The notes beneath the pieces were generated by a model, which did no database searches, was not told the origin of the DNA, and worked only from the letters and a program-made list of their open reading frames with translations. DNA of 64,000 bases from NCBI RefSeq assembly GCF_000510645.1, contig NZ_KI783301.1:2146420-2210419 (forward strand). Reading direction: 5' to 3'. The number at the start of each line of letters is the position of its first letter. Position 1 is the first letter of the stretch. The stretch is from Thermicanus aegyptius DSM 12793 (lineage in GTDB: Bacteria > Bacillota > Bacilli > Thermicanales > Thermicanaceae). Position numbers and translations under genes: made by a program. Of this stretch, positions 19,634-50,285 are shown piece after piece.

Positions 19634-20866
19634 TTATGCCCCCTTCACGTCTTGAAGCACGTTAAAACCGTTCTCCTCCCGGTAAACCATTTTGAAAGGC
19701 TTATCCCGGGGGATCTTTTTTACTTTCTCCTCATCACGTGAGACAAGGAGCAATTCTTCTCCCGTTGAGACGTTCCTTACATTTAAAATAAAGTAAGGAA
19801 CCCCCTTGGGTGTTTTCTTTCCCTCCTCTTTTACAAGAAGATACATCTCCTCTTGAGATGAAGCGGATTCCGCCGGAGTAACCTCACTTTCTTCCGATTC
19901 CGTTTCGTTCGCCAAAACGGATTCCAGGATGTATGTCAATTCTCCCTTTCCGTTTGTAACCGTCCGGTATTTCATGCGGAACGGTTTATCGGCGGGGATC
20001 TTTTTCGCCTCATCCATTGACTCCCCTTGAGGAGCGAAGAGAACGAGTTTTTCCCCGGTCGTCTGATTGACGACCGTAATAAACAGGTATTTTACTCCGT
20101 TACCCTTTTCTTTCTCCTCCATCCCGAGGAGCTTAAACTCATTGACTTTATCTCCTTCAGCCTCTTTCGAAGCAGACTCTTCAATCGAAGAAGTCTCTTC
20201 AGAAGAAGAAGCCGCTTCTGCTGTTTCCTCGATGGTAAGCGGGCTGGAGTCAGGGACACTATCCGCATTATTCAAAACGACTTCTGTATGCTTCGGAGTA
20301 TCCTCTTCACCCATTTCTTCCGGAATATAAAATCCGGAAAGAATTGGGAATTGACGACGCAAGGCAAAGGTTTCTGCCACCTTTTGAATCATGACAGCCG
20401 GATATTGCTGCCATGTTTGGGAGGATGCGTTTGCCTTGAAATATTCGTCGAATTCGACGAATACGACAACAGGATCAAAGCGCTTGTGTTTCAACACGGC
20501 ATAAGAGCCGATAATTTTTCCACGCTTAGATCCGAACTTGTGATGAACCAACGCCTTAGTTGGTTCAATCTCTAGATCATCCCCCTCCCTTGCTACGGAG
20601 GAGATTGGCGGCCCCACGTAGTCAGGTGACATAGTGGCCGCTTTTAACATGGCATCCCTCGTGACAATAAACTTGACTTGAGGTTTGCCCGTTTTTTTGG
20701 AGACGTATTTCGAAAAAACCACATCTCCTTCGATAGGATTCAGACCTGAGATTTCACAACGCTCGATGAAAAGCTCCGATTCTTCCTTCGTTCCCCCTTG
20801 AGGGAGCACAAAGAATTTCCAGATAAGCTCTTTTTGCTTATCCGAAAACTGGATCTTTTTTTCCAT
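19634..20866 (-). CDS. recT-like: RecT/Bet-family single-strand annealing protein with duplicated C-terminal domain, 410 aa
   Basis: Residues about 1-190 match phage recombination protein Bet of the RecT family: LFIERCEISGLNP, FIVTRDAMLKAA, WQQYPAVMIQKVAETFALRR and FPILSGFYIPEEMGE. An acidic Ser/Glu-rich linker follows. Unusually, the C-terminus carries two copies of a domain of about 75 residues (about 240-320 and 340-410), recognisable by KIPADKPFRMKYR and KIPRDKPFKMVYR. The duplicated part could bind nucleic acid or SSB. It is the first gene after leader L3, with a strong GGAGGAAAGATGG start. Confidence 0.85.
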   Translation of the reverse strand: MEKKIQFSDKQKELIWKFFVLPQGGTKEESELFIERCEISGLNPIEGDVVFSKYVSKKTGKPQVKFIVTRDAMLKAATMSPDYVGPPISSVAREGDDLEIEPTKALVHHKFGSKRGKIIGSYAVLKHKRFDPVVVFVEFDEYFKANASSQTWQQYPAVMIQKVAETFALRRQFPILSGFYIPEEMGEEDTPKHTEVVLNNADSVPDSSPLTIEETAEAASSSEETSSIEESASKEAEGDKVNEFKLLGMEEKEKGNGVKYLFITVVNQTTGEKLVLFAPQGESMDEAKKIPADKPFRMKYRTVTNGKGELTYILESVLANETESEESEVTPAESASSQEEMYLLVKEEGKKTPKGVPYFILNVRNVSTGEELLLVSRDEEKVKKIPRDKPFKMVYREENGFNVLQDVKGA

Positions 20867-21273: not shown

Positions 21274-22977
21274 TCAGCCATAAATATTTTTGTAGTGATA
21301 TGCCTCTAAAAAGAACGGCGGAAGGTTACGCGCCATGACCATAATTTTTCCTTCCGGTATCATTCTCGCTTCAGCCGCCGTTAAAAGTTCAACACGCGTA
21401 TCTTTCCTTGTGGTGCTGTAGCCTGATATTCTTGACGCATACTCGGCGGTTTCCCCGGAACTTCCCGGATAATATATCTTTGTCTTGAGGTTGTTAATAA
21501 TATCCTTCTGTTCGTGCTCGCTGTATTCCCTCGATAGTTGTTCTATACCCTGAAGTGCAACACATAAGGATATCTTCCTGGATCTTAACGTTGCAGCCAT
21601 TTGTGCGAACCCCGGTATTTTACCAATGTTCGGAAACTCATCAAGTAGGAAGAAGATCGGGTTCCCGTCTATATCTGCAATGTGCTCGATGGATTGCCAG
21701 AAAAATGTTGCCATGAGCGGTTTTAGAATATGCGCCTTTCGTTCCGGTATCCTTACAAAAATGACTGTCGATTTCGTTCGGATTGATTTAAAAGAGATTG
21801 TGTTCTCTTTCTTAGCAATCTCGCTTACATCTGGTCGCGCGAATATTTGTACTGAAGATGTGAGAACTGTACGGATAGAGCCTGCCGTTTCAGGGGATTC
21901 GAGTGATTGTGTGTAGGTGAGATAACGGTCTAATGCGGTTCCGCCGATGTATTCGATGATCTCTTTCTTTGCTTCTTCCGGTAGATAAGTGACAAAGTTT
22001 GCCGCTTCGTCTATCGTTCCAAGTCCTCCTTCACTTAGAAATCTGCGAAGGTATCTCGCCGTTTCTTTACCTCCACCTTTTTCTTTGAGGCCATTGGTTA
22101 TATGTCTTATCATCTTCACCATTTCATCATTCGAAAACCTTGATAGCGCTTTGGTCGCGTATAACGAGGCTTCCCAAAGAGGTTTGGCAAAGTTTATCCA
22201 TTGGGTATCCCCCCCTCTACCTTCAGGGTCATAACCGTTTTTAAGCACGATATCCGCGATGTCTGCGATCTCTGCTTCCGATTCGATCAGTCTCAAAGGG
22301 TCATAGCCGGAAGATATTTCGGGCTGGAAGGGGGAGAAGGTGTAGGTTTCCCATCCTTCTTTTCGCAGTTTTTCTGCTGTGAGTGATTCAAGCTCCCCCT
22401 TCGGATCGGTCACGATAACAGATGTATTTTTTGGCAAAGATAAAAGATTTGGGATAAAAAATGTACTGCTTTTCCCCGATCCGGTCGGCCCGATGATCGC
22501 GATATGCTCAAAGCTGTATCTGGCCGATAGTCTCACAGGTTCTAACCCTCTCATTTTCTTCTTGCCGCCAATGATCACTCCATCGTTTCCGAGAAGTGTT
22601 TTTGCTTCATCCAAGCTGCCCCATTCGCTTGTTCCCGCCGATGACGCTGTTCTATTCTTGATCCAAAGGTCTCGCCGCCATCTTTTGTACGTCGGATAGA
22701 AATGCTTTATTACGTTTCTTACGCCTATGGCTATAAGTAGTAAAATGATGACCCCTACACCAAGAATGATTCCATCTCCATTTTGAAGCTTTCCCACGCC
22801 TGTTATGGTTCCGATGAATCGAAAAATAAGTTTAAACCCGGCAGTCAGAATACCATCATTTGTTTTCGTGAACAGCTGAAGCAGGATGCCATATATCAGG
22901 CTTTGGATGAGAAGATAGATGATAATCGCTAAAATAACGGCTATTGCGATTAACTTTTTCTTTGGATTCTTCTCCAT
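21274..22977 (-). CDS. virD4-like: VirD4/TraG-type conjugative coupling protein, 567 aa
   Basis: Coupling proteins are inner-membrane ATPases that bring DNA and protein substrates to a type IV secretion channel. Two N-terminal membrane segments (about 8-35 and 65-90) precede the ATPase domain with Walker A GPTGSGKSST, Walker B IFFLLDEFPNIG and the TraG-typical LVALQGIEQ-like ALQGIEQLSREYS. It is complete. It lies downstream of three genes whose products share a C-terminal tail, separated from them by a small gene and a terminator-like hairpin. A second coupling-type ATPase is encoded at 43-44.8 kb. Confidence 0.92.
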   Translation of the reverse strand: MEKNPKKKLIAIAVILAIIIYLLIQSLIYGILLQLFTKTNDGILTAGFKLIFRFIGTITGVGKLQNGDGIILGVGVIILLLIAIGVRNVIKHFYPTYKRWRRDLWIKNRTASSAGTSEWGSLDEAKTLLGNDGVIIGGKKKMRGLEPVRLSARYSFEHIAIIGPTGSGKSSTFFIPNLLSLPKNTSVIVTDPKGELESLTAEKLRKEGWETYTFSPFQPEISSGYDPLRLIESEAEIADIADIVLKNGYDPEGRGGDTQWINFAKPLWEASLYATKALSRFSNDEMVKMIRHITNGLKEKGGGKETARYLRRFLSEGGLGTIDEAANFVTYLPEEAKKEIIEYIGGTALDRYLTYTQSLESPETAGSIRTVLTSSVQIFARPDVSEIAKKENTISFKSIRTKSTVIFVRIPERKAHILKPLMATFFWQSIEHIADIDGNPIFFLLDEFPNIGKIPGFAQMAATLRSRKISLCVALQGIEQLSREYSEHEQKDIINNLKTKIYYPGSSGETAEYASRISGYSTTRKDTRVELLTAAEARMIPEGKIMVMARNLPPFFLEAYHYKNIYG

Positions 22978-23246: not shown

Positions 23247-24305
23247 TTAGATTTTTGCCTTTGTACCCGCTTTTCCCGCTGAAACACCAATTCGTTCGAG
23301 GTTATCTAATTCTTTTTCCAAATCATTGAGTGATCTTTCTTCTTTTTCGCTATCTTGATATTTCTTACGTTGTTGAAACGCGTGGAGAAGAATGTGTTGT
23401 TTATCTTCCTCAAAATCTTCTAGATATTTATAAATATTTATCTTAGCGGGCTCAAGCCATATCGATTTCTGTGTCTCGTGTGATATTTTATAGAACCCGC
23501 TATCACTTAATTTACCTGCCCTATAAACCTTTCCCTCGATATTTTTCATTACTTTTTTCTTGCTACCATAACCCATGTACTTGTACTCCCAGTTCCACGA
23601 AAGTAATGTTTTCTCACTATCATCTTCTTCTGCGAAAGTATAATATCCGTATTCCGCTGCATAACGCGATTGAAACGCATTTTGTCGCACGTATATTAAT
23701 CCTTCGTTTTCTGCAATTGCATTAAATATATTTTCGATTGCTCTATCGTAATATTCGGGCATGATTGACATTTTTATCCTGGATTTATTTGACACTACAG
23801 ATATACCATATGAAAACGCTACTCCTACTTTTAAACCGTCTTTACTTACCTCATAGGAATTACGCCGACCCCAAAGGTGCTTTGTCCAACTTGGCTGTTC
23901 GATTTGTGGCCTTTCCTTTTTTCCGGTGTGCATTTCCTCCATCTCTTTTGTCGTTTTCTCAAAAATTTTTTTTAAACGCTTAATTTCCCTTTTTACATCA
24001 TTATAAGTTCCCTTTGTTATGAATTCTTCATCGACAAATAATCGCACATCCCCACCTTCCAGAGGCATCGAGATTGAATATCTATCTTTTATTTTAGCCG
24101 TTATTCCGTATTTATGGCCTTCTTGAACCATTTCCTCTGCAACCGGGAATTTTTTTAAATCAATAAAATGGCCAAATAACTTAATTTCATTTTCCTGACT
24201 TTTTTCCTGCATATATCTCTCTCTTATTTTTCTCAAAACACGTTCCTTTTCTCGCTCTGTCGTAAACGGAGAAGTAAGAACCCCCATATATTCCCGTTCA
24301 TCCAT
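23247..24305 (-). CDS. Hypothetical protein with shared C-terminal tail (tagged protein 1), 352 aa
   Basis: I do not recognise the body. It has a helical N-terminal region with YNDVKREIKRLKKIFEKT, then a mixed domain (KVGVAFSYGISVVSNKSRIK and aromatic-rich strands), and no membrane segment. The last 30 residues contain LEKELDNLERIGVS and end in KAKI, a tail almost identical to that of the next two upstream genes although the bodies look unrelated. Its setting just upstream of a VirD4 protein suggests export or shared regulation. Ribosome binding site: AAAGGAAGAATAAAAAATG. Confidence 0.7.
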   Translation of the reverse strand: MDEREYMGVLTSPFTTEREKERVLRKIRERYMQEKSQENEIKLFGHFIDLKKFPVAEEMVQEGHKYGITAKIKDRYSISMPLEGGDVRLFVDEEFITKGTYNDVKREIKRLKKIFEKTTKEMEEMHTGKKERPQIEQPSWTKHLWGRRNSYEVSKDGLKVGVAFSYGISVVSNKSRIKMSIMPEYYDRAIENIFNAIAENEGLIYVRQNAFQSRYAAEYGYYTFAEEDDSEKTLLSWNWEYKYMGYGSKKKVMKNIEGKVYRAGKLSDSGFYKISHETQKSIWLEPAKINIYKYLEDFEEDKQHILLHAFQQRKKYQDSEKEERSLNDLEKELDNLERIGVSAGKAGTKAKI

Positions 24306-24347: not shown

Positions 24348-25076
24348 TTATAATTTTAATCCCTTCCCTGTTTTTTCTTCCGAAACATCGATTCTCTCCA
24401 GATTATCTAATTCTTTGCCCAATTCGCCTATCTGTTCTCCCTCTTGCGAGTTTGTTATTTGAACCTTCGGCGCAGGAGGGAGGAAGTAATATGGTGAGCG
24501 GCAGTGATAATCGGTGGCCTTCTCTTTTGCAGCCTCGATAGCATTGTTTAAGTATGATGGAGGTTCCACATCCCATTCGCCGTACTTAAATTGATGTATT
24601 GCTTCCATTTCCGCAAAGGTGGCTGGGTGGCCGTACTCAACATAGTGCGAGTATGATCCCAAAAAGCTCTTGACCGCTTGGTAAGTATCCGGCAAAAGCC
24701 CTTCTTCTCCATAGTCATATATTGCTTTTTTTATTACCTCCTCCTTGGGGAGAAGGTTTTCGGCTGTTTCAACCAGCTTTTTGGTGCGCTCTTCCCCCTC
24801 CCAGACATTTTTTATTCGCCACACAGTGATCGAAAAGTCTCTTCTGTGATGGCTGGCGTCGATTACAATGTCACCTTGTTCAACAGCAAAAAGTGCGTGT
24901 TCGCGGCAAGCCAGGTCACCGCGATTTCGAATGTATACGGCTCTTTTCTTGGAACCGTCCGCATTGCATACTATTCTGGAACTCCCCGTATTTGTATAAC
25001 CGCCGCCGGATTCCCAAATGGCAGGAAGCCCCTTATTTGTAGTGTCAAGTTTTACCTTTTTTACTTCCATTAACAT
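24348..25076 (-). CDS. Hypothetical protein with shared C-terminal tail (tagged protein 2), 242 aa
   Basis: The N-terminal domain has GLPAIWESGGGYTNTGSS and an RGDLACREHALFAVEQGD motif that I cannot place. A helical middle and a proline-rich linker (PPAPKVQ) follow. The C-terminus reads LGKELDNLERIDVSEEK and ends in KGLKL, matching the tails of its two neighbours. There is no signal peptide. Two in-frame ATGs two codons apart follow AAAGGAG; either may be used. Conserved His, Cys and Asp residues in the N-terminal domain could hint at an enzyme. Confidence 0.7.
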   Translation of the reverse strand: MLMEVKKVKLDTTNKGLPAIWESGGGYTNTGSSRIVCNADGSKKRAVYIRNRGDLACREHALFAVEQGDIVIDASHHRRDFSITVWRIKNVWEGEERTKKLVETAENLLPKEEVIKKAIYDYGEEGLLPDTYQAVKSFLGSYSHYVEYGHPATFAEMEAIHQFKYGEWDVEPPSYLNNAIEAAKEKATDYHCRSPYYFLPPAPKVQITNSQEGEQIGELGKELDNLERIDVSEEKTGKGLKL

Positions 25077-25091
25077 CCCACTCCTTTCGCG

Positions 25092-26351
25092 TTATATCTT
25101 TAATCCTTTTCTTGGCTTTTCTTCTGCAACATCGATCTTTTCCAGATTGTCCAATTCTTTTTCCAATTCGCCCACCGGCTTTGCTTCTTTCACAATATCC
25201 TCAGGTATTACCTCTCCAAGTTTTACCGATTGCGAGTGCGTCATTGCAACCGTTGCTCCAGTGCCTGGTTGATAAAGTGCTACCGCTTTTGTAGTCCCAT
25301 GATATGCCATTGTTGCCGATGCCGCCAGCCAATTCGGCATTCTCCCGGATAGTATGACTTTCGATCCCATTGGCAATTCCGGCGGAAAAGCATTATCTAA
25401 GTCCTTGGGGTTTAGCGGCTCGGATGGATCGTTTTGTTCAACCTGCACGATATGCCAATCTTTATTCTTTAGCACTGTCCATTTGAGATTTTCTCCACCC
25501 CCCATTCCACTCGGTTTTTTCATCCCGATTGGAACGTATCCGTCCGGTGAGTTTACCGATACCGAATTCGGGTGTAGTTCGTGCGTGATAGAAGCCACAA
25601 GCCACGCAGGTGCCGCTCCATTGATTTTTATGTGCATTCCTTCCGGAACAGGCTTGTTATGCATGATCTGTGATAATTTAACGAGATCTTCTCCCGTCCA
25701 TACGATTTGCTCCACTTCTTTTCCGTTTGGTAACGTCCTTTTTATAGGTTTTTTCCCCAATTCATCCGCCAGCTTTGAGATTTCCAAAACATTTTCCATT
25801 TTTTTGTCCTCCTTTAACTCATTTTCTTTTAATTTAGATTCTGGATTTATCGCCTTAAAGAATGCAACTGCGGATGCAAGAGCCTTGTCTGCGGGATTGA
25901 ATTGGTCTAACCCATTTAATCCTGAGTATTTAATTCGGTTGATATGCGGGTCGATCCCATTTTGGCGCAAGATAACTGATACACTGTTAAGTGAGATAGG
26001 GTGTGGTTTATACTGTTTGCGGTTTTCCGGATCGTCCTGTATTACCTGATCAAATAACCTTTCTACGTCAATAATTCCCTTGTCTACTACATGGATCGAA
26101 TTTTTCATATGCTTCATATAAAATTTCCAGAAATCGTCTCTCATCTCCCTTCTTGTTTTGTATTCCCTTAATTCTCCTAAAACCGGTAAGACTGTTTCTC
26201 TTACTCTTCTGTTTTCTATTTGATCTTTTTCGGCGATTCCGGCAAAACGATCTATTTCTTCGCCTTCTTCGTTTAATACAACGGCTCCAACCGCATAAAC
26301 CTCACCATAAGGCCCGTCTGATTCAACATTAAATGAAAGTATCTTTGCCAT
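25092..26351 (-). CDS. Degenerate DEDD exonuclease-like domain fused to tandem Csx3-like domains, with shared tail (tagged protein 3), 419 aa
   Basis: Residues 1-170 resemble DnaQ-type 3'-5' exonucleases (ILSFNVESDGPYGEVYAVGA). The first catalytic Asp is Asn8 and the usual final HNPxDD motif reads FNPADK, so activity is doubtful. Residues 217-280 and 290-390 are two Csx3-like domains. The second has VILSGRMPNWLAASATMAYH and QPGTGATVAMTHSQSVKLGE, closely matching the ISGRxPIWL...YDPxxGAVVVxSHS pattern of Csx3/Crn3 ring nucleases that degrade cyclic tetra-adenylate. The Asp of YDP is Gln here. The C-terminus LEKELDNLEKIDVAEEK ends in KGLKI, as in its neighbours. An internal ribosome binding site precedes Met185. 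A hammerhead ribozyme lies in the leader. Confidence 0.75.
   Translation of the reverse strand: MAKILSFNVESDGPYGEVYAVGAVVLNEEGEEIDRFAGIAEKDQIENRRVRETVLPVLGELREYKTRREMRDDFWKFYMKHMKNSIHVVDKGIIDVERLFDQVIQDDPENRKQYKPHPISLNSVSVILRQNGIDPHINRIKYSGLNGLDQFNPADKALASAVAFFKAINPESKLKENELKEDKKMENVLEISKLADELGKKPIKRTLPNGKEVEQIVWTGEDLVKLSQIMHNKPVPEGMHIKINGAAPAWLVASITHELHPNSVSVNSPDGYVPIGMKKPSGMGGGENLKWTVLKNKDWHIVQVEQNDPSEPLNPKDLDNAFPPELPMGSKVILSGRMPNWLAASATMAYHGTTKAVALYQPGTGATVAMTHSQSVKLGEVIPEDIVKEAKPVGELEKELDNLEKIDVAEEKPRKGLKI
25797..25817 (-). promoter_or_regulatory. Internal ribosome binding site and start (Met185) in the Csx3-like gene
   Basis: On the minus strand AAAGGAGGACAAAAAAATGG, a textbook site for this element, lies inside the reading frame and would start a 235-aa protein holding both Csx3-like domains and the tail. 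It suggests two ancestral genes fused, or that two products are made. Confidence 0.6.
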
Positions 26352-26391: not shown

Positions 26392-26449
26392 CCCGCGATC
26401 CCCCTTTCGGGGGATTTCGTCCGGTGACCAGCCGGACTCGTCAGGCGGG
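26392..26449 (-). ncRNA. Hammerhead ribozyme (type I topology)
   Basis: On the minus strand all core elements are present in order. Stem I 5' strand CCCGC (26449-26445) is followed by CUGACGA (26444-26438) and stem II GUCCGG/CCGGAC (26437-26419). Then come GAAA (26418-26415), stem III AUCCCCC/GGGGGAU closed by a GAAA loop, and the AUC cleavage triplet ending at 26397. The stem I 3' strand GCGGG (26396-26392) closes the structure. Cleavage between 26397 and 26396 would leave the downstream mRNA with a 5'-OH about 45 nt before the exonuclease/Csx3 start codon. That new 5' end can refold as GCGG-GAAA-CCGC. Confidence 0.88.
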
Positions 26450-31041: not shown

Positions 31042-34000
31042 CTAAGACTTAGGCAATGCCTTTACAATTTCAATGGTCTCTACACTTACCCTTACAAGAG
31101 ATTTTATCATATTGACAATATGACGCGGATTTCCTTGCTCCTTCAACCACTCATTTGGATCATTCGTAATACCGCTTTTCTTGTCCTTTGTGATTTGGTA
31201 GCGTTCCATAACCCACTCGATCGGCGATCTTCCGTTTACAACGTATTCATATGCTTCAAGCTGAATGCCGCGCAGTGTAATGTGCTCATTGTAAACAATC
31301 GTCGTTTTGTCCGGTTTTCCGTCAGGTGTTTTTCCGAATCTCATTTTTTCGATCGTATACGTTTTTAGATCGTTCAAATCTCCTTTGATTTCCTCCTCCA
31401 ACGGCCAAGGCTCGACGGTTTCGTAGTTTAGGTGGAGCTCAGACAATTTACGCCCTGCACTGCTAAATGCCCAGAAATCTTTCGCCGAAGATACGAACGG
31501 AATGCGTGGAAGCGCCTTTTTTAGATCGTTTCGGTAACGTACCCGGTACTCCGGCGAATGCAGGAAGCCATAAACGAAGTAGAAGATATCCTCCTTTGTC
31601 ACGCTATCCCCGTACCTGCGGCGATATTCTTGTAGCGCCCAGTCGGTGATGTTCATACGGCGGATGTACTTTCGTCCGGATGGGGCGGTGCCGATGATTT
31701 CACCCTCCATTTTTCCTGCCAAGGCGTCGGTGTCGGAGACGGGTTCGTAGGTGTAGAGGGGAAAGGTCTGGGCACCACCGTCAATCATGTTTACGTCAGG
31801 GATGCAATCTACAATTAACGCAGTAAAATCTTTTGTTCCTCCAGCCCCCTTCATAACAATCGCGACGTTTTCCATGTCTGGTTCGGGGAAAATCTTGGGC
31901 AAGAGATAAGTAGCTCCGTTGAATACTTTGCTGAAGTACAGCCACTCTTTAACAAAAGGTCGGTATACTGATAGAGTGACAAATCCTACTTCTTCGAATC
32001 TGTGTGAAGAACCCCTTAAAAGTTCGCCTTTTAAATCTAGAGACCACCCGATTTTTCCGGGGTCATTATTTATTTGGAGTTCTAGATTGTCCTGCGTAAT
32101 TTTTCCAGCCCGAACCAGTTCAACGTGACGGTTAAATTCATCAATCATGCGGCGCATGTTGTCTGCCAACTCCAACTTGGAGAAGTTATAAACCCACGCA
32201 TCACGGTGTGTTTTTACCCCGCTGGAGTACAGCTCGAATATTGTCTCCTTATCCCCATTCTGCTTTGCCCCAATTACAGGGAACGCCTCAAAATCCTTGC
32301 TTCGCTGATTGATCCAATCATGCGCCTTATTCGGTTTGATGCGCTCCCACACCACACCGCCGATATGCCCGTACTCCTTCAACCGTGCCAGCTTCTCTTC
32401 GCGGCTGAGGTAGTCCCCGATGTCATGGTAGTAGATCTCCGCGGGGCTGGCCTTAGAAACGTCCTTGACGAGCACGAGTAACGCCACACCCGCACGGCTG
32501 CCTTGGCCGAAGATCTTTCCACCTTCTTTACGCCAAGCTTCACCTGAAAGGCGAGCGTTTCCACGAAGATTGAGGACGTAGATCTTCGCAAATTCTTCAG
32601 CGAGGCTCTTTCGGAGTCCACTGGCGGCGTTTCCGTCGAGAAAACCGCTGTTCGTCACGAATGTGATCACACCTTTGTCTTCAATCCGGTCAGTTGCCAT
32701 CCGAATAGCGCGGATGTACGAGTCGTAAAGGGAGTTCTTGTTTGTTGTCGATGAATAAGCTACATAGGTCTGGCTTATTTTCTCGTCCAGCTTGTTGTAT
32801 TTAACGGACTTAATCCCTAGGTTCTCCTCTTCTTGTTTGGCAAACCAAGGGGGATTAGATACGATCACATTGATCTTCGCTTCTTTTTGTTTTCGCATCA
32901 GTTCCGTGTACTGCTCCGGAAACAGGTCTGTCTCCATCGTCTCTTCAGACTCCATGAGTTGAAATGAATCGATCAGCAACAAATTCTCGAACGGCTCATG
33001 CTTTCCGGTGATGTCGAAGTACGTGCTTTCCACGTTGGCCAGAGCGATGTAATACGGAAGAAGCAGAATCTCGTTGCCCCAAATTTCGCCTTCGCGATAT
33101 TTTCGCTCCAATGCCTCTTTCGGGATCAGGTGCATCAATCTGGTAAGAAATGTTCCCGTACCGGAGAATGGTTCCAGGATTACCACGCCTTCATCGGAAA
33201 GGCTGAGGCCGAATTCGTCATGCAATACCCGATCGGCGCTTGCCACCAAAAAATCCACAACCTCTACAGGGGTATAGACGATCCCTAAACGATCGGCAAG
33301 TCTTGGAAAAGCTGATTTAAAGAACCGGTCGTATAAGCGTCGAAGAAAATCTTGCCGCTCAGCTTCCTTGTCCATGCCGCGTGCACGGTTTTTCACACTT
33401 CGATAAAAGCCTTCCAATGTGGCCGTTTCCTTTTCGATAAAAGCTTTAAAAACGGCAGCAACCCGTTCGAAACTTCCGGATACGGCATTCTGCTTAAGAA
33501 AATCATAGTTTTCGAATAAAGCGTCGAAGATCGGTTTTGTGATGATGTGCTGCACCAACATGCTCCGGGCGTCATCTTCTGTCACTGTCGGATTGGTAAT
33601 TTGACGCAATGACTCTACATAACCGGAGAATGCTTCGCGTGCCTCTTCTCCGAATTTACCATCGGATTTAAGCGCTTCATCAATATGACGTTCAATGCGT
33701 TGGGCTACCTCCGCAACGTCTTTCGCCCAGTTTTCAAAGTAATTTTTTTCACCTACTCGTTCCACCAGGACGCCGATAATCTTGCTTTTGATTTCTTCAA
33801 ATTGTAAAGGAAGAATACCTTGCGTATGATCCATGATTAAAATATCGTCTGATTCTTCATCCGAAGAAGACGATGACGTATTTCGTTTTTTCAGGACTAT
33901 CTGCCGCACACGCGCATCAAAACGGTCGTCGAGGGACCGTAAGGCGGATAAAATTTCCCACACTTTGCTAAATTCTTCGTTATTTCGGATCTGTACTTCA

Positions 34001-35763
34001 ATGTTTGTTTCTGGATTGACCACTACAGGAATGATGACATAACCGTATTCTTTCCCTGGCGCTTTTCGCATCACTCGACCAACAGCCTGTACTACATCTA
34101 CTTGGCTTTTACGGGGTTTAAGAAACACTACTGCGTCTAGTGACGGAACATCTATCCCTTCGGTAAGGACTCGTGCGTTTGAAAGTACCCGCACTTCTCC
34201 TTCATCCGGTTCCCCGCGCAGCCAATCTAAATGTTCTTTTCGTTCAGTAGCGGTCATGGTTCCGTCCACATGCCGTACTTTAAAGTGATGCGTTTTTTCG
34301 CCTGTTTTTTCGGTAAAGGCAGAAACGGTATTCTGGAACGCTTTGGCAAAATTTCTTGAGTCGCGTATCGCTTGCCCCGCGAAGACGACAGCACGACGCG
34401 CAGCGGGGATTTCTTCTCCGCGTACATGCCCGGATAAAGCACGCCACGTACCTATAATCCTGGTGGCGTCCACAACTTCCGGTGTATCAGGTTGGTTTAA
34501 ATATTCAAAGAGCTCGGTTTGAATCTCATTTTCACTTACCGCGAATACGATTACTTTATAGTCACATAAGTGTCCGTCGTCAACGGCTTGTCCGAAACCA
34601 TATCGGAAGAATTCTTTTCCGTAAATCGTTTCGTTATCCATCGAAAAATATTCGATTTCCATTTCTTCCAGCTTTTCTTTTAACTTTGGTACATATATTC
34701 TCGGTGTCGCCGTCATGTAAAGACGTTTTTTCCCATTTACGTTTTGATTGTTATGGACTTTGGTGTAATAGGATTCTTCGCCGTTTTTTACAACACCGGT
34801 TGTTCGATGCGCCTCATCTGCAATGATGAGATCAAATTCCGGAAATCCATTGTTTTGTGCCTCTTTGATTACATCTATGGAATGATAGGTGGATACCACC
34901 ACCGTCATCGAGTCCGTTTTTTCTTGCTGAATCGCCTTAACCAAATCTTCTGCATTGGTGGTCGGCGGAATCGTTAATACCGTTAGCCGGTCAATGCTAT
35001 CCTGGTCTTTTCCTACAGTCCGGTCTGATGTGACTGCAAAAACACGAAGCGGTATGTCTGCATCAACCAGCCACGCGCGAAGTGTTTGTTCAACTAATGC
35101 GATGGACGGTGCAAGGAATAAAACATGCCCGCCCTGGCCAACCTGTTTTTCGGCGATCTTTAAAGCCACCAATGTCTTGCCTGAACCCGGGGGCATGATG
35201 AGTTTTCCACGATCTGCTTCGACGAACCCTTCTGTGACGGCTTTGATTGCTTGTTCTTGATATGGCCGAAGGTTTTTCTTTTTTTCGTATGTGATATTTT
35301 CCGGATTATGCCATTGAAACGATTCCCAATCTATCCCGTAATTATTGACAATATCATATAGTGTAATAACCGTAACTTCTTTTTCTTGACCCTTAATGGC
35401 TTTTTCGGCGTTTTGGCCAAGCGGTGATGCAGTTACGATCATTCTTCTGGAAAATTCTTTGCGCCCGGATACCGCCAGAAATGTTTTAATATCATCGTAT
35501 GAAACTTTTTCTTCGTGGGATTTTGCTTGAATCGCCCAAAGTTTCCCAGTATCACGCTCTTTAGCTACGATATCGATTCCGAGATCCGGTTCGTCCTTGT
35601 CGCGATCCGGCCAGTCATACCATTTCCAAACGTCGATAAATTCTTCTTTGTAGTAGGGATCATTCTTCAAAAAGGCAATGACAAACCGTTCAAAAATTTC
35701 TCCTTTCTCTACCGTGTTGGTTGCTGTCTTTTCTAGTCTTTCCAGAAGTTCTTGTACGTTCAC
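31042..35763 (-). CDS. Single-chain type ISP restriction-modification enzyme (LlaGI-like), 1573 aa
   Basis: One polypeptide carries all functions. There is an N-terminal Mrr-like nuclease (DEPDLGIDIVAKERD...LWAIQAKS). A superfamily 2 helicase/translocase follows, with PPGSGKT, DEAH in LIIADEAHRTTG, and VVQAVGRVMRK. Then come a helical coupler and a gamma-type N6-adenine methyltransferase with ILEPFSGTGTFLTRL (SAM motif) and IVSNPPWF, and a C-terminal target-recognition domain. The length matches LlaGI/LlaBIII (about 1570 aa), and all motifs look intact. GTG at 35763 lies eight nt after AAGGAG. It would protect the element from loss or exclude foreign DNA. Confidence 0.93.
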   Translation of the reverse strand: MNVQELLERLEKTATNTVEKGEIFERFVIAFLKNDPYYKEEFIDVWKWYDWPDRDKDEPDLGIDIVAKERDTGKLWAIQAKSHEEKVSYDDIKTFLAVSGRKEFSRRMIVTASPLGQNAEKAIKGQEKEVTVITLYDIVNNYGIDWESFQWHNPENITYEKKKNLRPYQEQAIKAVTEGFVEADRGKLIMPPGSGKTLVALKIAEKQVGQGGHVLFLAPSIALVEQTLRAWLVDADIPLRVFAVTSDRTVGKDQDSIDRLTVLTIPPTTNAEDLVKAIQQEKTDSMTVVVSTYHSIDVIKEAQNNGFPEFDLIIADEAHRTTGVVKNGEESYYTKVHNNQNVNGKKRLYMTATPRIYVPKLKEKLEEMEIEYFSMDNETIYGKEFFRYGFGQAVDDGHLCDYKVIVFAVSENEIQTELFEYLNQPDTPEVVDATRIIGTWRALSGHVRGEEIPAARRAVVFAGQAIRDSRNFAKAFQNTVSAFTEKTGEKTHHFKVRHVDGTMTATERKEHLDWLRGEPDEGEVRVLSNARVLTEGIDVPSLDAVVFLKPRKSQVDVVQAVGRVMRKAPGKEYGYVIIPVVVNPETNIEVQIRNNEEFSKVWEILSALRSLDDRFDARVRQIVLKKRNTSSSSSDEESDDILIMDHTQGILPLQFEEIKSKIIGVLVERVGEKNYFENWAKDVAEVAQRIERHIDEALKSDGKFGEEAREAFSGYVESLRQITNPTVTEDDARSMLVQHIITKPIFDALFENYDFLKQNAVSGSFERVAAVFKAFIEKETATLEGFYRSVKNRARGMDKEAERQDFLRRLYDRFFKSAFPRLADRLGIVYTPVEVVDFLVASADRVLHDEFGLSLSDEGVVILEPFSGTGTFLTRLMHLIPKEALERKYREGEIWGNEILLLPYYIALANVESTYFDITGKHEPFENLLLIDSFQLMESEETMETDLFPEQYTELMRKQKEAKINVIVSNPPWFAKQEEENLGIKSVKYNKLDEKISQTYVAYSSTTNKNSLYDSYIRAIRMATDRIEDKGVITFVTNSGFLDGNAASGLRKSLAEEFAKIYVLNLRGNARLSGEAWRKEGGKIFGQGSRAGVALLVLVKDVSKASPAEIYYHDIGDYLSREEKLARLKEYGHIGGVVWERIKPNKAHDWINQRSKDFEAFPVIGAKQNGDKETIFELYSSGVKTHRDAWVYNFSKLELADNMRRMIDEFNRHVELVRAGKITQDNLELQINNDPGKIGWSLDLKGELLRGSSHRFEEVGFVTLSVYRPFVKEWLYFSKVFNGATYLLPKIFPEPDMENVAIVMKGAGGTKDFTALIVDCIPDVNMIDGGAQTFPLYTYEPVSDTDALAGKMEGEIIGTAPSGRKYIRRMNITDWALQEYRRRYGDSVTKEDIFYFVYGFLHSPEYRVRYRNDLKKALPRIPFVSSAKDFWAFSSAGRKLSELHLNYETVEPWPLEEEIKGDLNDLKTYTIEKMRFGKTPDGKPDKTTIVYNEHITLRGIQLEAYEYVVNGRSPIEWVMERYQITKDKKSGITNDPNEWLKEQGNPRHIVNMIKSLVRVSVETIEIVKALPKS

Positions 35764-35828
35764 TCTGTTCACTCCTTTTCTTTATTTTAAAGTCTTCTCT
35801 ATACATAAAGGGAAAATAGCTCCGAAAT

Positions 35829-48909: not shown

Positions 48910-49215
48910 GTTTACACCCCTTTCCCCTTATCCCACAAGGCATTATCTTAGTTTTTTCTGTTTCTTGTATTACAAGTGACCTCTCATATTCTTTTTACTT
49001 GTAATACAATCTTTTCCCTTATCCTATAAGGTTTTATTAAGTTTTTTTCTGTTTCTTGTATTACAAGCGATCTCTTATATCCTCTTTCTTTGTAATACAA
49101 CTACCTAAAAAAAACGGCTTCATCCCTTGTCTTGCAAGGCTTTAATCGCGTTTACAATCAGATCGATTGTTTGTATTACAAAAACTCATTTTTTTGCCTT
49201 CTAACCCTTGTCCTG
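48910..49215. repeat. parC-like: Centromere-like iteron region (parC)
   Basis: Two repeat types alternate. The palindromic CTTGTATTACAAG or CTTGTAATACAA occurs at about 48963, 48999, 49057, 49091 and 49172. CCCTTaTCCtAtAAGG-like repeats occur at about 48926, 49017, 49124 and 49207. The first two units form an imperfect direct repeat of about 90 bp. The block lies between the ParR-like and ParM genes, where it can act as centromere and as ParR operator. Confidence 0.75.
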
Positions 49216-49232: not shown

Positions 49233-50285
49233 TTACACTTTCCTTGTTTGTTCTTGTATCCTCCCCAAAATCAAATATCCGATGGCATCTGCAAATTGAC
49301 CGTCCCTCGGGAATTCTACATTCGGATGGAAGTCTTCAAGATATTCTTTAAGCTCTAAAGCTCCTCCGCCACAGAAAAAGATTGTGCGGACAAATTCTTT
49401 CTTTTCTCCCCACATAGAGGTGATGTGCCTTTTGATGGTAGAGGCTACTGTTTCTTTCGCTTTACGCAAATCGGAAGATATATCGATCTCTCTCCCTGCG
49501 AAATATTGCCTTCCTCCCTTTTTTATGATGTCTTCAATAATAACGATGTTTGGCCGGTGTCCTGTCTTTTCAAAAAAGGCGTCTTGTGCTAACGTTCTAA
49601 TCTGCATACCGCCTACTGAAGCGTCTATCGTAAACGACATATCCCACATGAGTTTTAATTTATCTACCGCATGGAAAGTGACTACATCCACTGTACGAAA
49701 GCCGATGTTGACAGCCGAGATCAATTCTCCACTACGAAATAGTTCAGGTCTTTTAGGAAATCCTCCGGTGTTTAGAAGATTGGCATAAACGGAAGCACCC
49801 CCTTGAATAAAGACCGTGACTTTATCAAACTTGATGGTGCTTACTTGTCCTTTCTTTTTCCCGGTGAGGTGTTTCAAGTTTATGTTTATCTTGTTTAGCA
49901 TATCTTCAAAGGCATCTTTCTGTTCTTTGAAGTGTCCAAAGGGGAGCCCGGTAATGAGATGTATGGGCTGAGGGTCAGGGGGGAGAAGCTCCCCTACTGC
50001 CGTTGCTAGGAGAATTTTCGTCTCCGGCTCATTGATTTTATTTCTATCAAAAGCATACATGGCCATGCGAGATTCTAATGCTAAGTCGCCGACGAAGTAT
50101 TCCTCCGCCTTACCTCTTTCCTCAACCCTTACGTGAATGTCGTTTTCCCCTTCATCTGGCCCAAAAAGCCTCATTATGCTCCGGTCATGGGCTGGGGAGA
50201 TGAGACTGCGGAAGAGTACCCTCTCCCCATTTTCGTTGATCCCCTTTACATAGCCATAACCGATGTCTACGGCAATTTTAAACAT
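49233..50285 (-). CDS. parM: ParM-type actin-like plasmid segregation ATPase, 350 aa
   Basis: ParM forms dynamic actin-like filaments that push plasmid copies apart. The phosphate-1 motif VDIGYGYVKG, the central GLPFGHFKEQ, phosphate-2 VNIGFRTVDVV, and the adenosine motif FFCGGGALELKEYL are visible. The usual Asp of phosphate-2 (DIG) is Asn here. The sequence belongs to the Gram-positive ParM/Alp-like group. Upstream is a lipoprotein gene 12 nt away; downstream are iterons and the ParR-like gene, giving a complete parMCR locus. Confidence 0.9.
   Translation of the reverse strand: MFKIAVDIGYGYVKGINENGERVLFRSLISPAHDRSIMRLFGPDEGENDIHVRVEERGKAEEYFVGDLALESRMAMYAFDRNKINEPETKILLATAVGELLPPDPQPIHLITGLPFGHFKEQKDAFEDMLNKININLKHLTGKKKGQVSTIKFDKVTVFIQGGASVYANLLNTGGFPKRPELFRSGELISAVNIGFRTVDVVTFHAVDKLKLMWDMSFTIDASVGGMQIRTLAQDAFFEKTGHRPNIVIIEDIIKKGGRQYFAGREIDISSDLRKAKETVASTIKRHITSMWGEKKEFVRTIFFCGGGALELKEYLEDFHPNVEFPRDGQFADAIGYLILGRIQEQTRKV

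Follow-up and report, generated by a model that had tools for sequence, protein, structure and literature searches.

A fused DEDD and Csx3-like protein on a conjugative element of Thermicanus aegyptius that may bind, rather than cleave, type III CRISPR messengers

To our knowledge, the anti-CRISPR proteins directed at the messengers of type III CRISPR immunity are mostly enzymes, each dealing with one messenger. The closest described relatives of the protein analyzed here are two families of type III off-switches. One is Csx3, or Crn3, which is associated with cyclic tetra-adenylate (cA4) and is represented by AfCsx3 (PF09620, PDB 6yud). Mutants H60A and D69A of AfCsx3 are inactive, R71A and H80A are highly reduced in activity, and the side chains of S44, R46, and R71 contact cA4 (PMC7371418). 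Csx3 domains also occur joined to other modules, namely AAA or CARF-HEPN partners in the CRISPR-associated Csx3-AAA and Csx1-Csx3 fusions (PADLOC PDLC01045, PDLC01059, PDLC01844). The other family is a DEDD phosphodiesterase linked to SAM-AMP. In the type III-B loci described by Chi et al., corA adjoins either the phosphodiesterase NrN or a DEDD protein, and the CorA-associated DEDD protein resembles RNase T, oligoribonuclease, and REXO2. Degradation of SAM-AMP was demonstrated there for NrN and for a lyase, and was proposed for DEDD by analogy (PMC10600005). A further paper counts DEDD among the SAM-AMP-degrading enzymes (PMC11229360). Finally, Csx15 binds cA4 and, according to the member, breaks it down slowly or leaves it intact; its over-expression relieves cA4-driven plasmid immunity (PMC13148439).

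The stretch of DNA that we analyzed (the window, 64,000 nucleotides) covers positions 2,146,420–2,210,419 of the 3.66-Mb single-contig genome of Thermicanus aegyptius DSM 12793. The open reading frame (ORF) of interest was confirmed at exactly 25092–26351(-), where 1257 bp run uninterrupted through 419 codons and a strong ribosome-binding site, GGGAGGA, lies 6 nt upstream of the ATG. The features of the protein and its surroundings are collected in Table 1. An AlphaFold2 model of the 419-aa protein, built on 39 aligned rows that were seeded with Csx3, reached a mean pLDDT of 71 and about 90 across the second Csx3-like domain (domain 2), and no effector domain (nuclease, HTH, or membrane) was found in the 419 residues. 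No protein with the succession DEDD-Csx3-Csx3 came up in plasmids, phages, viral contigs, or genome collections at the sensitivity of these searches, and single-protein scans of genome contigs and viral contigs returned no close relative; the sole match among 399 genomes of the class was a stand-alone DEDD protein in one of them (G420). The fusion is known from a single genome, with no sister sequences to show whether its loss of residues is shared. Ahead of the gene, its leader contains a hammerhead-ribozyme-like sequence in which the core and three matching stems can be recognized by eye. Cleavage is predicted after C26397, which lies 45 nt from the ATG; the minimum-free-energy fold forms stem III, not stem I.

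Table 1. Features of the 419-aa ORF and its neighbors, in window coordinates.
Feature	Position	Strand	Remarks
419-aa ORF	25092..26351	(-)	apparently inactivated DEDD phosphodiesterase + degenerate Csx3-like + Csx3 + shared C-terminal tail
DEDD (DEDDh, DnaQ-fold) domain, aa 1-170	25842..26351	(-)	D8->N, acid 96->V, acid 123->S, H151->F, D156->K
Csx3-like domain 1, aa 203-270 (INGAAPAWLVASITHELHP)	25542..25745	(-)	equivalents of H57 and H60 kept; R46, D69, R71, H80 absent
Csx3 domain 2, aa 288-389	25185..25490	(-)	S44, G45, R46, H60, H80 kept; H57->M, D69->Q, R71->G
27-aa C-terminal tail VGELEKELDNLEKIDVAEEKPRKGLKI of the 419-aa ORF	25095..25175	(-)	
Tail on the 242-aa neighbor (ORF 24348-25076)	24351..24431	(-)	
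Tail on the 352-aa neighbor (ORF 23247-24305)	23250..23330	(-)	
VirD4/TraG-type coupling protein, encoded immediately downstream of the three tailed ORFs	21274..22977	(-)	PF02534 3e-50
RecT, recombination module of the element	19634..20866	(-)	PF03837 7e-22; stand-alone DEDD gene of G420 in a similar module (L035)
Hammerhead-ribozyme-like sequence in the gene leader	26392..26449	(-)	RF00163 at 18.2 bits, short of the gathering score (34); pattern match

An earlier note on this DNA, made from the sequence alone, had proposed tandem Csx3-like domains and suggested profile searches and a structural overlay as checks. Both place domain 2 within Csx3. The domain matches PF09620 of Pfam at 63.9 bits (cut-off 21, E 1.2e-17) and the PADLOC Csx3 profile at E ~1e-19, falls slightly under the cut-off of TIGR02579 (55.0 vs 55.4 bits), and finds AfCsx3 by phmmer at E 8e-8. 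Its predicted structure (aa 288–392) overlays 99 residues of cA4-bound AfCsx3 (6yud_D) with Z 15.5, 1.7 Å, and 31% identity, and Foldseek matches it to AfCsx3 at E 4e-7. The description of the domain as closely following the Csx3 pattern was too strong, as the aligned motif is YQPGTG in place of the YDPRLG of Csx3, and Met replaces H57. All of 43 canonical Csx3 sequences share H57, H60, D69, and R71, and 40 of them have H80; the corresponding residues of domain 2 are M, H, Q, G, and H (for H57, H60, D69, R71, and H80); most of the genome sequences in this count were drawn with a pattern permitting only [DQ]P[RG] at 69–71, a bias that did leave room for the Q and G of the window, and eight viral members could also have entered through a second pattern free of it.

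The breakdown of cA4 that the note had expected does not fit these residues. Because D69, R71, and H57 are lost in domain 2 and D69A alone inactivates AfCsx3, the sequence makes cleavage of cA4 by the 419-aa protein unlikely, and the first copy (domain 1) is without D69, R71, R46, and H80. Domain 2 does retain the S44-G45-R46 segment, whose contacts with cA4 come from the opposite face of the site. Together with H60 and H80, this segment makes up what by alignment is a partial binding face left in the domain. Binding may be lost too, given that R71 contacts cA4 and that the equivalent of I49 is Asn in this protein.

Domain 1 is probably a real, if weak and divergent, Csx3-like copy. It scores 23.6 bits against an HMM of Csx3 sequences, and the highest score in 2000 shuffles was 6.3 bits. 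Folded alone, it reached a pLDDT of 80, and the top entries in VIA-align were Csx3 structures (Z 6.4–6.9, 2.7–3.1 Å); the structural support for domain 1 is only moderate because the alignment behind this model included Csx3 rows. Plain Foldseek gave the model an E of 0.37, which is not significant. For wider searches, an alignment of all types of Csx3 was too diverse for scanning, and an alignment of short Csx3-like sequences with domain 1 returned no match.

At the N-terminus, the predicted structure of residues 1–175 matches oligoribonuclease, REXO2, RNase AS, and RNase T (Z up to 9.7, ~4 Å) and is therefore a DnaQ-fold DEDDh domain. Neither the window copy nor its homologue in G420 matched Pfam or PADLOC, and PDB sequence searches with the domain gave chance matches only. 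An Rv2179c-like identity was rejected, as it rested on a weak match of one homologue (from G105). The closest homologue is the stand-alone 167-aa protein of G420 (E 5e-43, ~50% identity). Its gene (L035:9930-10433) has all catalytic positions and lies on a related conjugative-type element, in a module with RecT, a DnaG-type zinc finger, SSB, a PD-(D/E)XK nuclease, and RadC that resembles the module of the window and is without Csx3. A candidate Cas10 in the host of this homologue was discarded, as both matches to PF22335 (the Cas10 palm) fall by eye in GGDEF-type sensory proteins without cas neighbors. GGDEF-type proteins exceed the PF22335 cut-off in an E. coli control as well, so a bare match to this profile is not proof of Cas10.

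The relatives of the DEDD domain point to type III immunity. A two-sequence profile made from the window and G420 copies matches genes in two more genomes of the phylum, G105 (E 1.1e-32) and G323 (E 9.7e-23). The former is flanked by cmr6 (a RAMP gene; PADLOC Cmr6 1e-29) and corA (PADLOC CorA 3e-144), and the latter by a cmr6-like gene and cas6, with corA in the same locus (PADLOC CorA 2e-79). A further homologue on a Tistrella plasmid (E 2e-11) adjoins cas10 (PADLOC 3e-33) and RAMP genes. On this plasmid, pTM1 of Tistrella mobilis (L088/L089), the DEDD gene is intact, with cas10 and the RAMP genes on one side and a tyrosine recombinase on the other. Its homologues adjoin corA and cmr6 or cas10 in type III loci, the arrangement described by Chi et al., and we therefore infer, from locus and fold, that the window domain is related to their CorA-associated DEDD phosphodiesterase. 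The same neighborhoods count against the earlier suggestion that the domain merely binds nucleic acid. Its catalytic death, by contrast, goes further than had been listed: fourteen homologues (CRISPR-linked, phage, viral-contig, and G420) all have acids at 8, 10, 96, 123, and 156 and His at 151, whereas the window has N, E, V, S, K, and F at 8, 10, 96, 123, 156, and 151, so that E10 alone is kept.

Set against the described systems, the protein shares the fold, the SGR motif, H60, and H80 of its domain 2 with Csx3/Crn3, and differs from that family in the three replaced residues, in the degenerate copy that precedes domain 2, in the added DEDD domain and tail, and in its position outside a type III locus. 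Its DEDD part is alike in fold to the CorA-associated enzyme and falls in one sequence family with the corA-locus genes (E 1e-32 and 1e-22), but it has lost five of the six conserved positions, is fused to Csx3, and has no corA nearby. The proposed mode of action, cA4 held with little or no cleavage, resembles that of Csx15, which is unlike the 419-aa protein in being a CRISPR-encoded, single-domain member of the CARF family. The Csx3-AAA and Csx1-Csx3 fusions are comparable in joining a Csx3 domain to other modules; they differ in their partners and in their association with CRISPR. Known counter-defense proteins of mobile elements are likewise aimed at type III messengers; unlike the 419-aa protein, which appears inactive and carries modules for two messengers, they are active enzymes of other folds.

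The window lies within an integrative conjugative element of ~130 kb that splits comM, as the earlier note had guessed in calling the surroundings conjugative. L039 contains the N-terminal part of comM (PF13541, and PF01078 to position 163) and L029 its C-terminal part (PF01078 from 153, and PF13335), a large serine recombinase stands at one end of the element, and VirB4/VirD4 genes lie inside. Both junctions bear 5'-CGCACGGACA, and the attachment sites in comM are likely at genome positions 2,127,283 and 2,257,339 (G000), which share this sequence. The absence of CRISPR from the window also held up: no tandem repeat family there looks like an array, the 419-aa ORF itself is the sole cas-related match among the window proteins scanned, and neither corA nor type III genes occur near it. 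The whole host genome yielded no match to the Cas10 palm (PF22335) or to RAMP proteins (PF03787); no type III CRISPR was detectable in the host, which has three cas1 loci that are type I in appearance. The element also carries a large type IIG/type I restriction-methyltransferase gene (31042–35772(-), PADLOC E 0). Elsewhere in the window, two 90-nt direct repeats, 81% identical and spaced by 91 nt, occupy 48920–49100, just past the 3' end of a 350-aa ORF (49233–50285(-)) that is ParM/actin-like by eye.

The C-terminal tail that had been reported as shared is real and is confined to three adjacent ORFs of 419, 242, and 352 aa. The 242- and 352-aa neighbors had no Pfam match above cut-off, no NCBIfam family of note, and no match in plasmids, and the 352-aa protein had a chance match only in genomes of the class. 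Between the tails of the 419- and 242-aa ORFs, dN is 0.14 and dS is 1.24 (omega ~0.11), which indicates that the tail is kept as protein. The tail may be a secretion signal for VirD4-dependent type IV transfer, by which the protein could reach the recipient, as the earlier note had suggested.

Our tentatively preferred explanation, to which we give slightly less than even odds, is that the protein joins two families of type III off-switches, both inactivated, and binds messengers without cleaving them, as a sponge-type anti-CRISPR. The two families are joined, their catalytic residues are gone, and the frame is intact, and therefore the simplest functional reading is a messenger binder. We picture the Csx3 part as the holder of cA4, and the DEDD part as possibly binding SAM-AMP or a linear adenylate; trapped in this way, the messengers would not reach their effectors as the element arrives, or is expressed, in a cell that has type III immunity. 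An anti-CRISPR role is thus the leading idea for the 419-aa protein; ligand binding, the anti-CRISPR effect, and a VirD4-dependent use of the tail are all things that we infer. Csx3-like domains with an altered D69/R71 segment are also found in type III loci (L022, L023), and the altered motif therefore need not mean loss of every activity. Against a sponge, no local target is apparent in a host that lacks Cas10 and RAMP genes, and the authors of the Csx15 study argue that type III messengers are made in such abundance that sponging may be futile, and doubt that it would suit an anti-CRISPR (PMC13148439). We consider it rather improbable that a two-headed sponge for cA4 and SAM-AMP is, in addition, exported with its two tailed sisters through the element's own type IV system to act in the recipient before the element's genes are expressed there.

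A modest chance falls to a new use inside the element, where the protein would bind nucleic acid or a partner protein in conjugation or recombination and messenger binding would be gone. AfCsx3 also binds RNA (PDB 3wzi), the genes adjoin virD4 and the RecT/SSB module, and one tail is common to three unrelated proteins, all of which suit such a use. Both families handle type III messengers by locus, however, and would be an odd pair for a structural role.

It is improbable, to a greater degree, that the protein senses messengers for the benefit of the element, for example as a receptor that alters transfer or the state of the host when type III immunity fires. In the type III locus L022, a CARF-type protein is joined to a Csx3-like domain whose catalytic segment is altered, and therefore messenger-binding Csx3 modules without cleavage may exist. 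Against a sensor, the 419 residues hold no effector domain, and a host without Cas10 or RAMP genes makes no such messenger.

Only a slim chance remains for a working ring nuclease, in which the H57/H60 face of domain 1 would meet the SGR/H80 face of domain 2 and some other residue would replace D69 and R71, so that cA4 is cleaved. Two faces do form each active site of AfCsx3, and activity returns when H60A is mixed with D69A (PMC7371418); domain 1 retains H57 and H60, and domain 2 retains SGR, H60, and H80. D69 and R71 are nevertheless absent from both domains, although the canonical Csx3s counted above invariably have them and D69A by itself is inactive. Least probable of all is a functionless, drifting relic of two degraded enzymes fused by deletion: the protein is a singleton with many catalytic residues gone and domain 1 partly eroded, but decay alone fits poorly with the loss of eight conserved residues in an intact frame with a strong ribosome-binding site, selection at the protein level acts on the tail, and in the comparison with the G420 homologue the largest divergence is at third codon positions (66% vs 35% and 26%), although synonymous sites are saturated there and dN/dS of the DEDD domain could not be computed.

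If the messenger-binding reading is true, two inactivated off-switch families in one element-borne protein would be a new design, one that works by binding and is directed at cA4 as well as SAM-AMP. Given the host and homologue data, two published E. coli reporters would allow a direct test, MtbCsm with Csx1 and BfrCmr with CorA, the latter of which depends on turnover of SAM-AMP (PMC12255297). Should the tail serve in secretion, it would illustrate a way in which a Gram-positive element could disarm CRISPR ahead of the expression of its own genes.

The searches also brought up a short Csx3-like family (~80 aa) with an altered YDPRLG segment (YDSPVTG and similar), in which the PF09620 match starts only from position ~25. 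Its members are stand-alone in L018, L020, and L021, with integrase-type genes near the L018 and L021 copies, and lie in type III-B-like loci in L022, where the CARF-type fusion occurs, and L023; the cas gene names in L018–L024 and L026–L028 were read by eye and are confirmed by profile in part.

Apparently intact stand-alone versions of both modules, found in viral contigs and in G420, form a ready set of candidate type III anti-CRISPRs. Canonical Csx3 genes with D69, R71, H57, and H60 occur in eight viral contigs (L041–L048) and on an 18-kb Pyramidobacter plasmid with phage-like genes (L017), with no cas gene evident nearby, and are candidate Crn3 anti-CRISPRs. A survey of 28,114 phage genomes reported the ring nucleases AcrIII-1, Csx20, and Csx16 only, Crn3 not being among them (PMC12409355). 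DEDD homologues with all catalytic positions are carried by viral contigs (L098–L105) and phages (L085–L087), and these, with the G420 protein, are candidate anti-CRISPRs against SAM-AMP signaling.
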